DNA from: Solicola gregarius
GTDB lineage: Bacteria > Actinomycetota > Actinomycetes > Propionibacteriales > Nocardioidaceae
Assembly (NCBI RefSeq): GCF_025790165.1
Contig: NZ_CP094970.1
Coordinates: forward strand, 1,364,001-1,428,000
DNA: 64,000 bases
Direction of reading: 5' to 3'
In this document: positions 7,963 to 40,110 of the stretch, piece by piece
How the letters are laid out: each line of letters starts with the position of its first letter
Position numbering within the stretch: position 1 is the first letter of the stretch
Made by a program: the position numbers and the translations under genes
Notes under the pieces: generated by a model
Told to the model about the DNA's origin: nothing
The model's database searches: none
Seen by the model: only the letters and a program-made list of their open reading frames with translations

Positions 7963-8868
7963 TCAGTCCTCCGAGGCCACCGCCCGCGCAGACCGTACGA
8001 GTGCGTCGAGCGCGTGGCGTACAGCGAGCCGCTCGGCACGGTCAGGACGCATCAGCGCGAAGATGTAGCGGGCCGTGGCGACGCCCGCCAACGGCCGCAG
8101 CACGACCCCGTCCCGCGGCCGGGTGGTGAACCGAGGTAGCACGGCCAGTCCATGCTCGGCCTCGACCATTGCCTCGACCAGCCGATTGTCGCGGATGCCG
8201 CGCTGCACGTAGCGCAACGTCTGCCCGGTACGCGCGGCGACCGCGTCCAGCACCGACTCGAACGGGAAGCCCGGCGGCACGCCTATCCACGACTCGTCCG
8301 CGACGTCCTCGGGCGTGACCCGCGTACGTCTCGCCAGCGGATGCGACGAGTAGAGGGCGATGTCCAGCGGCTCACGGATCAGCGGTTCGATGCGCAGACG
8401 TACCGAACCGGTCGACGGGCGCTCCGCGAGGCTGTGCGCGATCACGATGTCGTGGTCGACGGTCAGCGGCGCGTAGTCGGCCTCGGCGACGTCCTCGTCG
8501 GTGAACGTCACCCGGATCGACCGCGCCGCCAGGTCTCGTAGTGCCGCGGGGACGAGGTACTCGGCGGCGCTCGCGAGCCCGGCCATCGTGACGTGCCCGC
8601 TCGGCGCGTGCCGGAACTCGTCCCACTCGGCACGCGCCGACTCCACCGCCGTCGCGACGCCGACCGCACCGCGAGCAAGCACCCGACCGGCCTCGGTGAG
8701 TCGTACGCCCCGCCCGTGCGGCTCGACCAACGGCACTCCGAACTCACGCTGCGCCGTACGTAGCTGCTGCGAGACAGCCGACGGCGTACGGTGCGTCGCC
8801 GCGGCGACGGCGGTCACGCTGCCTCGCTCCGCGAGCTCGCGCAGGAGTTCGAGGTGCCGAATATCCAT
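7963..8868 (-). CDS. LysR-family transcriptional regulator
   Basis: A 301-residue LysR regulator. Residues 1-60 form the winged helix (AVAAATHRTPSAVSQQLRTA), followed by a two-lobe substrate-binding domain from about 90. On the minus strand TAGGCT (8880-8875) lies 6 nt before the ATG, so it is probably leaderless. It is divergent from an EamA exporter, and the intergenic dyad GATAGT-N6-ACTATC fits a LysR site controlling both genes. Confidence 0.93.
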   Translation of the reverse strand: MDIRHLELLRELAERGSVTAVAAATHRTPSAVSQQLRTAQREFGVPLVEPHGRGVRLTEAGRVLARGAVGVATAVESARAEWDEFRHAPSGHVTMAGLASAAEYLVPAALRDLAARSIRVTFTDEDVAEADYAPLTVDHDIVIAHSLAERPSTGSVRLRIEPLIREPLDIALYSSHPLARRTRVTPEDVADESWIGVPPGFPFESVLDAVAARTGQTLRYVQRGIRDNRLVEAMVEAEHGLAVLPRFTTRPRDGVVLRPLAGVATARYIFALMRPDRAERLAVRHALDALVRSARAVASED

Positions 8869-37655: not shown

Positions 37656-38033
37656 ATGGCACATCCGCGGATGTACGAGGACGACGACCCGCTGCTGGCG
37701 AAGGTGCGTTCGGTCTGCCGCGACTTTCCCGAGTGTCGTGAGGTCGAGGCATGGGGGCGCCCGACGTTCCGCGCGGGCAAGAAGATCTTCACCGTCTACT
37801 CCACCGACGACGAACACGACCACTCGCTGGTGTTCAAGCCGGAGCCGGGCGAACGTGCGGCGCTGGTGCAGGACCCCCGCTTCTACGCGCCTCCGTACTT
37901 CGGCCCCTCGGGCTGGCTCGCACTGGATCTCGTCGCAACGCCACCCGACTGGACCGAGGTCGCCGAGCTCGCCGAGGCGTCGTACCGCCAGGTCGCGCTG
38001 AAGCGGATGCTGCGGGCGCTGGACGGCGCCTGA
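37656..38033 (+). CDS. MmcQ/YjbR-family protein
   Basis: A 125-residue single MmcQ/YjbR domain ([26 protein letters not shown]), with the CyaY-like fold described as DNA-binding. TAGGGT (37642-37647) lies 8 nt before the ATG, suggesting a leaderless start. A second member of the family is at 42187. Confidence 0.9.
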
Positions 38034-38067: not shown

Positions 38068-38161
38068 GGATGTTTACCATGTAAACATGGTAAAGGTCCG
38101 CTTTGCGCGGTGAATCCACCATGCAAGGCGAATGTTTACCATGTTTACATGGTAAACATCC
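38068..38161. repeat. 94-bp element with 27-bp perfect inverted ends, each palindromic
   Basis: Positions 38068-38094 and 38135-38161 are exact 27-bp reverse complements. Each end is itself a palindrome: TTTACCATG/CATGGTAAA around TAAA on the left and ATGTTTACCATG/CATGGTAAACAT around TTTA (38132-38159) on the right. The ends are AT-rich in a very GC-rich region. It lies between an MmcQ gene and ung. It could be a small mobile palindromic unit or a strong double operator. Confidence 0.85.
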
Positions 38162-38205: not shown

Positions 38206-38883
38206 GTGTCCGCGAAGCCATTGAGCGAGCTGGTCGCGCCCGACTGGGCCGAGGCGCTCGCACCGGTCGAACCGACGATCACCCAGGTGGGTGCGTTCCT
38301 GCGCGACGAGATCGGCGCGGGTCGGACGTACCTCCCGGCCGGCGATAACATCCTGCGCGCGTTCCGGGAACCGATGGCCGACGTGAAGGTGCTGATCGTC
38401 GGCCAAGACCCTTACCCGACGCCGGGCCATCCGATCGGGCTGTGCTTCTCGGTGGCGCCCGACGTACGCCCGGTGCCGGCCAGCCTGAAGAACATCTACG
38501 CCGAGATGGGCACGGACCTGGGCCTCGCCGAGCCCGAGTCCGGTGACCTCACGCCCTGGACGAAGCAGGGCGTCCTGTTGCTGAACAGGGTTCTGACCGT
38601 TCAACCGGGTAAGCCGGCGAGCCACCGCGGCAAGGGCTGGGAGGCCGTCACCGAGCAGGCGATCCGCTCGCTCGTCGAACGCGACGCTCCGCTGGTCGCC
38701 CTGCTGTGGGGCCGTGACGCGCAGACCCTCGAGCCGATGCTCGGCGATACGACGGTGATCAAGAGCCCACACCCGAGCCCCCTGTCGGCATCGCGCGGCT
38801 TCTTCGGCTCACGCCCGTTCAGTCGGGCGAACGCCGCCCTCGAGGCGGCTGGCGCGGCCCCGGTCGACTGGCGCCTCGCCTGA
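38206..38883 (+). CDS. ung: Uracil-DNA glycosylase, family 1
   Basis: A 225-residue UDG that removes uracil from DNA in base-excision repair. [14 protein letters not shown] (catalytic Asp68) and [18 protein letters not shown] (catalytic His, minor-groove loop) are intact. GTG 38206 is chosen because TACGCT (38193-38198) sits 7 nt upstream, a leaderless start; the longer frame from 38110 crosses the palindromic element. Its end overlaps the convergent MFS gene by 75 nt. Confidence 0.96.
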
Positions 38884-40110
38884 CCCACCTCCCCGCTGAG
38901 CGGGACGTTCGAGTGCGACATGCCGGCGTGTCGCCGCGCGAACGTCCCGCTGAGCGGGCGGACGGCGCAACGGTCGCCACAGCAGCGCGGTGACGAGCAG
39001 CGACGCGCCCGCCATGCACGCCATCGCCTCGCCGGGTGCCAGCAGCTCCGCGAGTGTGCCGGACAGTGTCGCCGCTACGCCTTGCATGGTGAGCATTCCG
39101 GCGCTGTGCAGACCGAGCGCCTGGCCGCGCACCTGCTCGGGTACGAGAGCCACGAGCCGTTCCTGGAGCATGATCCCGGCACCGAACCCGACCGACGCGA
39201 CGGCCACCAGCACCGCCGCGACAGACACGGGCAACGCGACCGCGAATGCGAGGTACGGCAGGGCGAGCAGCGCCTGCACCGGTGACACGAGCCAGCGCCG
39301 AAGGTGCGGCGGCACGAGTCGACCGGTCACTGCATCGCCGCAGAGCATGCCGAGAGCCCCCGCGATGAACAACGCTCCCGCCGCCTCCGGGGCGTACGGG
39401 ACGAACAACGCCTCGCACCCCACGACGAGCCCGTTCGGTAGCCACAGCGCGGCGTACGTGACGCGTACGCCCGATCCGGACCACAGCAGCCGGTTCACCC
39501 GCCACGTCTCCCGGATCGAAGGACGTCCCTCCGCCCTCGCCGGCCGTCGGGTCAGCCCGAACCGGGTGACCACGGCGCCAACACCCGCCAGCCCTGCAGC
39601 GACGAGCAACGCCGCCCGCGGCGACAGTACGACCAGCAGCACGCCACCCGTGGCAAATCCGGCGATCTGCATCGCGCCGACCGCCATGTTGAGCACGGAG
39701 CGCCCGAGTACGTAAGCGTCGTCGGGCAGGATCTCGGTGAGGAGGCCCCAGCGCGTACCGCCCGCGACCGATCCGATCAGCCCTTCGGCCAGGATGATCG
39801 CGAGCATCACGGCGATCGGCATCCCGGGCAGGGCAAGCGCCGCGATCGAGACCGCGAGTACGAACGAGCTGGTGGCGAGGACTGTACGCGGGGGCAACCT
39901 GTCGGCGATCGACATCATCGTGAGCGCGCCCGCCAACTGCGCGAAGGCCGGGCCGAACATACTGAGCGCGGCCAGCAGCGGCGAGCCCGTACGCGCGTAC
40001 ACGAGCGTCGCGAGAGCGAGTCCCGCTAATGTCCCGCTGGCGACGTTCGCGCACACGGCGAGGAAGAACACGCGGAACTCGCGTACCGCGAACAACTGGC
40101 GATAGGTCAC
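38809..40110 (-). CDS. MFS transporter
   Basis: A 433-residue 12-helix major-facilitator protein of the MFS_1 type, likely an exporter. It starts at GTG 40110. The last ~50 residues are Arg-rich and non-membrane; they are encoded across the ung terminator hairpin and the end of ung, so the ancestral C terminus was probably near 38970 and the tail is read-through. It is divergent from an ArsR/DUF5937-type regulator 58 nt away, which probably controls it. Confidence 0.85.
38893..38957 (+). terminator. ung terminator hairpin
   Basis: Arms 38893-38911 and 38939-38957 pair at 18 of 19 positions, starting 10 nt after the ung stop. Each arm contains the small palindrome CCCGCTGAGCGGG. It lies inside the convergent MFS frame. 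Confidence 0.75.

Follow-up and report, generated by a model that had tools for sequence, protein, structure and literature searches.

A dispersed nested palindrome of Solicola gregarius and an AbiEi-Vsr-like gene as its candidate partner

The 94-bp element described here is probably (at roughly 60%) a non-autonomous, REPIN-like nested palindrome, whose family is served by an AbiEi-Vsr-like gene in a REPIN-RAYT-like arrangement. Its family is dispersed in the genome, palindromes of the family bracket the gene, and such genes are matched to palindromes of their own; moreover, the arrangement recurs with other sequences in many actinobacteria, as well as in several paralogs within one genome. 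Mobilisation of the elements by the nuclease is what we infer from this arrangement; its main rivals, a regulon controlled by a repressor and a gene carried as a passenger, are considered below with the evidence that bears on them.

Structure and dispersal of the element

The window, i.e., the whole stretch of 64,000 nucleotides that was analysed, carries the element in an intergenic position between two same-strand genes, MmcQ-like and ung-like (Table 1). The first-pass annotation, made from the sequence alone, had described inverted ends of 27 bp, each able to fold by itself and forming an AT-rich island, and this description holds: positions 38068-38094 are the exact reverse complement of 38135-38161; P3 has perfect arms of 13 bp, while P1 has perfect inner arms and mismatches at its foot; and the G+C content is 41% in P1 and 34% in P3 vs 69% across the window. 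It is refined by a third hairpin, C, located between the two ends. Regarding its stability, the RNA fold of the 94-nt element reaches -66.6 kcal/mol, with none of 200 dinucleotide shuffles being equally stable (z = -14.9). A search of Rfam with the element returned five matches, all of them microRNA-hairpin models and each under its gathering cut-off, and a known RNA family was dropped as its identity on these sub-threshold matches.

Table 1. Positions in the window of the element, its hairpins and the adjacent features
Feature	Position	Strand	Basis
Family-A element, P-C-P, three successive hairpins, 94 bp	38068..38161	.	inverted ends, fold, dispersed copies
P1 palindrome, core TTTACCATG-TAAA-CATGGTAAA	38068..38099	.	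fold and covariation
C hairpin, central	38100..38129	.	fold and covariation
P3 palindrome, core TTTACCATG-TTTA-CATGGTAAA	38130..38161	.	fold and covariation
MmcQ-like gene (naming of the first-pass annotation), left neighbour, stop at 38033	37656..38033	+	
ung-like gene (naming of the first-pass annotation), right neighbour, GTG start at 38206 inferred	38206..38883	+	
Family-D copy, nested palindrome of a second, unrelated family, immediately after ung	38890..38958	.	

The conserved fold was studied by covariation among the 15 full-length P-C-P copies of the genome to which the window belongs (G000). Pairing within an end is kept in 95% of the cells for P1 and 92% for P3, compared to 86% for pairing between the ends, as in the outer stretch of a single long hairpin. 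The most telling columns are 4, 27, 66 and 89, where the within-end pairs 4-27 and 66-89 are present in 13 and 14 of the 15 copies, respectively, with swaps from G-C to C-G; across the ends, the same columns are paired in four copies (4-89) and two copies (27-66) out of 15. Other columns are less clear, the between-end pair 3-90 holding in 13 of the 15 copies; the foot pair 63-92 of P3 is broken in nine of them. Cells with double changes number 13 in the outer part of the long hairpin, 13 in P1 and 12 in P3, and six of the 13 from the long hairpin belong to the centre columns 15-78 and 16-77, those used to orient the copies. The covariation favours three separate hairpins over one long hairpin as the conserved unit, despite the frequent pairing in the outer part of the latter. 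The 27-bp identity of the two ends is partly peculiar to the window copy. At the outer side of the same 15 copies, a G occupies position -3 in 24 of the 30 ends, a possible foot motif.

The family of this element, named A, has at least 81 match rows in at least 40 places of G000 (4,915,757 bp), two of them beside the AbiEi-Vsr-like gene, the 40 places being a lower bound because only 40 of the 41 first-look candidates were scored. A second species of the genus (G001) carries a diverged form, with at least 53 rows in at least 33 places (40 of 46 candidates scored), again with two beside the gene. Both genomes are the only two with family-A matches among the 197 genomes of the taxonomic family, taken to be Nocardioidaceae. 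Divergence among the copies is about 10-20%, with no sign of recent bursts. The plasmid and phage collections searched with the element gave no match, and an origin from either was dropped.

Among the matches listed, 38 loci of G000 and 32 of G001 compared with about 1.5 kb of flank each, three syntenic pairs were seen: the gene locus, a shared copy (L049/L065), and a third pair in which the copy is missing in G001, although not with base precision. At the window locus of G001, 5 bp separate the MmcQ stop from the ung start and the element is absent, compared to a gap of 172 bp, element included, in G000. The empty sites in G001 are not base-precise, and are compatible with either a gain in G000 or a loss in G001. 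A genome-wide count of the palindromes and an empty site in a relative had both been proposed as checks by the first-pass annotation, which now has its answers in the dispersed copies of G000 and the element-free MmcQ-ung locus of G001, respectively.

That annotation had also considered a binding site controlling ung or the MmcQ gene, which would have been favoured by a single-copy site conserved in position among relatives. The intergenic position and the strong RNA hairpin do suit an operator or terminator of one of these genes; however, the family is dispersed over about 40 places in G000 and its site is empty in the sister species, being neither single-copy nor conserved in position, and an ordinary operator or terminator is therefore barely credible. 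The single-copy operator was dropped on the same two observations. Regarding the other suggestion, a REP or MITE unit mobilised by an outside transposase, the part concerning the repeat stands, as the family is dispersed, variable between species and brackets a gene, but a TnpA-REP/IS200-like transposase is not supported, no such gene having been found in G000 by a search for Y1_Tnp (PF01797) that was positive in six of 14 genomes; mobilisation by a RAYT was dropped accordingly. No target-site duplication was seen by eye at 15 copies.

The bracketed AbiEi-Vsr-like gene and its paralogs

The gene linked to family A is located at G000:C1:431226-432203, about 970 kb from the window element, and encodes a protein of about 326 amino acids. 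It is bracketed by the palindromes as P-C...C-P at a syntenic locus in both G000 and G001, forming a cassette of about 1.3 kb. The N-terminal part carries an AbiEi_4 domain, with the AbiEi models of PADLOC matching residues 2-181. An AlphaFold2 model was built on the homolog L143 with a 66-row alignment, reaching a mean pLDDT of 95.6, and was compared with solved structures by VIA-align. Residues 204-317 match the catalytic domain of I-Bth0305I (3r3p_A; Z 11.4, rmsd 2.4, 97 aligned) and the C-terminal part matches Vsr (1cw0_A; Z 9.6, rmsd 3.5 over 108), while residues 1-199 match AbiEi (Z 9.4, rmsd 7.1), and a match to TnsA has a Z of 5.9. Foldseek by itself placed AbiEi chains alone below E 0.001, with 1cw0 at E 1.3, and a profile search by sequence among solved structures gave no credible hit; the Vsr and homing endonuclease matches come from VIA-align, together with weak Pfam hits of paralogs to DUF559/MTES_1575, mostly under the cut-offs. 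According to the model, the protein is an AbiEi-like DNA-binding region fused to a predicted Vsr/EDxHD-like endonuclease domain. In the alignment, which comprises the 66 of 80 loci having no internal stop and at least 280 amino acids, Glu207, Glu251, Asp253 and Lys257 (E207, E251, D253, K257) are invariant in all 66 rows and Asp240 (D240) is present in at least 90% of them, and these five residues form a putative PD-(D/E)XK-like active site.

The predicted C-terminal fold is shared with Vsr and with the EDxHD/Vsr-fold homing endonucleases, such as I-Bth0305I; however, unlike in those enzymes, the domain is fused here to an AbiEi-like part within a free-standing open reading frame flanked by palindromes, and the dispersed copies have no common target site recognisable by eye. 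Likewise, the N-terminal region is similar to that of the AbiE type IV toxin-antitoxin systems, from which the protein differs by its extra nuclease-like domain and by its neighbourhood, where no AbiEii-type hit was obtained among four neighbour proteins (NUDIX/GNAT, unknown, MetH and HAD) of L068, an A locus, and L081, a B locus. No transposase domain was found in the two A proteins (G000, G001) nor in up to 10 paralogs and homologs scanned, and a second near-identical copy of the A gene was not found in either genome. In the left flanks of L080, L081, L125, L130 and L138, the stretch from the left element to the gene contains TCCACA motifs, some of which resemble a DnaA box.

Besides the A gene, the same genomes possess paralogs with palindromes of their own. 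Paralog B of G000 has 41% identity to A and lies between two P-C-P elements of an unrelated family, whose palindrome occurs in 11 further places of G000 (rows merged by hand) and has no match in G001. Meanwhile, the B gene of G001 has the same neighbours and is bracketed by another, unrelated palindrome, which is found in at least seven further places. The B cassette (L081 1261-2648; L223 1262-2759) is inverted between the species, with MetH and HAD-type neighbours in L081.

A profile search with A1 retrieved 10 homologs in G000, seven in G001 and three in a third genome, G055. Matched inverted flanks, defined by a score of at least 17 (a threshold chosen after a first look at the data), were found at 11 of the 20 loci, among them those of A and B. 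The loci without them are L250, L252, L253, L254, L239, L242, L249, L237 and L243, of which L252 consists of the AbiEi part only, L239 scores 21 under another choice of gene start, and L254 has a family-D relative on each side of its matched part, one of the two inside the upstream open frame.

The places counted for the paralog families are lower bounds, with 40 candidates scored per genome. Away from their genes, family C was found in at least three places of G000; family G in at least 12 places of G000, some of them 44-bp tandem arrays; family H in at least two places of G000 and 10 of G001, having in G000 a hairpin on one side of the gene only; family I in at least two places of G001; and family F in at least one place of G000 and two of G001, while for family E the two gene-flanking copies are the only ones among the matches listed. 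One array of the 44-bp units of family G (G000:C1:4426658-4426894) adjoins a paralog at 4427000, and similar short arrays occur elsewhere. Family D, also represented in the window (Table 1), has at least 15 places in G000 and 12 in G001. Weaker relatives of it (74% and 80% identity) flank the matched part of the paralog G000:C1:2925552-2926163, and its link to this gene is the least certain, since these relatives are weaker and one lies inside the upstream open frame. At least two places of G000 (L031 ~1681-1702, L040 ~8492-8513) carry another palindrome, ATTACCATGGGCCCATGGTAAT, adjacent to a hairpin that contains AGCAAATTTGCT or GGCAAGTTTGCC.

AbiEi antitoxins are autorepressors, and the AbiEi type of the N-terminal region would suit a regulon, where an AbiEi-like repressor binds the flanking palindromes for its autoregulation and controls other genes through the dispersed copies as their operators. 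This explanation is quite unlikely, considering that the copies are mostly at different sites in the sister species, with three syntenic pairs among the matches listed (38 and 32 loci), one of which has the copy missing in one species, and that the window site is empty in G001. Moreover, palindromes are located downstream of the gene too, the putative nuclease motif is invariant and the repeat of one paralog forms 44-bp tandem arrays.

A classical MITE relationship, in which the P-C-gene-C-P cassette would be an insertion sequence and P-C-P units would derive from it by deletion, is very unlikely: despite the inverted ends of the 1.3-kb cassette and the B cassette being inverted at its locus between G000 and G001, the A gene is syntenic in both species with no second near-identical copy found in either, the two A proteins show no transposase domain and no duplicated target was seen by eye. 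The elements do resemble the MITEs of DDE insertion sequences in their small size, inverted ends and presence or absence between species, but differ from them in having a partner gene that is syntenic, not multi-copy and without a recognised transposase domain.

Flanking palindromes of homologous genes across the phylum

The bracketing was compared between homolog loci and shifted windows. Matched inverted flanks were present at all 31 homolog loci of the family search (L080 and L081 included) vs one of 58 shifted windows and, when the score was raised to at least 20, at 29 of the 31 vs none of the 58. The flank sequences differ between species groups and are alike in near relatives (e.g., L129, L132 and L134). 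A strong self-palindrome (score of at least 20) occurs in at least one flank of 24 of the 31 loci vs one of the 58 shifted windows, and in both flanks of 15 loci vs none, being absent from both in seven loci. In the set of named genomes, which partly overlaps the 31 loci and from which two of 80 loci were excluded as too short, matched flanks were found at 59 of 78 loci (19 without) vs four of 557 shifted windows, whereas the pairing of the left flank of one locus with the right flank of another gave 87 matches in 6006. They are present at 42 of the 48 closer homologs and 17 of the 30 more distant ones in this set. In a sample of the phylum, a homolog at E 1e-12 was detected in 60 of 246 genomes, and matched flanks at 12 of 29 loci (17 without) vs one of 57 shifted windows, one of the 12 (L259) belonging to the window's own family.

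In addition, the correspondence between genes and dispersed repeats was studied in 16 genomes with a combined query of 13 elements, with 24-27 candidates scored per genome. These were taken from gene flanks, with the exception of family A in both G000 and G001, represented by dispersed copies instead. All 12 gene-bearing genomes were matched by their own element, with 11 to 57 rows each, and every row among the matches listed was the element of that same genome. Places away from the gene were seen in at least 10 of the 12, while in G127, with 14 rows, and G050, with 34, those among the matches listed are gene-flank rows. None of G055, G053, G042 and G024, the genomes lacking a homolog at E 1e-30, was matched by the elements of other species, a result that concerns specificity only and not the absence of repeats, because such elements are not expected to match there. 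Among the three distant homologs of G055, one has matched inverted flanks (L240, score 34).

This specificity bears on the possibility that the palindromes are primary, either selfish or copied by the host, and that the nuclease gene is merely located between two copies or has been retained to trim or contain the repeats. It would agree with repeats more numerous than the genes and with movement lacking direct evidence, but is nevertheless unlikely, as several paralogs are matched gene-specifically to several unrelated palindromes within two genomes, and this gene-specific matching is seen across species as well.

Likeness to REPIN-RAYT systems and proposed mechanism

According to two publications on REPIN/RAYT systems, their repeats are non-autonomous and the partner gene is flanked by hairpin repeats at a single place, not being multi-copy (PMC8049555, PMC3733652); there, short palindromic repeats that have a partner gene of their own are tied to HUH tyrosine transposases (PMC3733652, PMC8049555). 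The system described here is similar in its short, dispersed, hairpin-forming palindromes, found partly in pairs or arrays, and in a partner gene that lies between copies of these palindromes and stays in place, as seen by synteny between two species. However, its partner is AbiEi-Vsr-like instead of an HUH/Y1 transposase, with PF01797 not found in G000, and its unit is a P-C-P of about 94 bp with no common GTAG foot at 30 ends. It is named REPIN-RAYT-like, and not a member of that group, because the partner protein differs.

Considering a REPIN-RAYT-like system based on the nuclease, the most likely mechanism would start with the recognition by the AbiEi-Vsr-like protein of its own palindrome, either in duplex form or as a hairpin that is extruded while the DNA is replicated or transcribed. 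The protein would then nick or cut at the palindrome ends, and repair-coupled copying would place P-C-P units elsewhere in the genome; the gene, meanwhile, would stay where it is and be inherited vertically.

The similar palindrome-bracketed genes in many actinobacteria suggest an undescribed way to carry and spread short repeats. We lean slightly towards a wider proposal, namely an actinobacterial counterpart of REPIN-RAYT that evolved independently, where each AbiEi-like/Vsr-like nuclease would recognise a nested palindrome of its own and propagate it, with several orthogonal pairs per genome and the codivergence of gene and palindrome. Until now, such nucleases have been known only under the names of AbiEi antitoxin or DUF559-type domains, and the titles and first parts of abstracts of the papers listed from open PMC text, a collection with most subscription papers and preprints outside it, contained no link of AbiEi, DUF559 or Vsr-like genes to dispersed palindromes. 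If true, this proposal would place a second, unrelated class of enzymes in a REPIN-RAYT-like genome arrangement, meaning that the strategy had more than one origin. Many actinobacterial AbiEi-like and DUF559-like genes, whose homologs are present in 60 of the 246 phylum genomes, would also acquire a role, and natural enzyme-hairpin pairs of differing specificity, directly testable in vitro, would become available.
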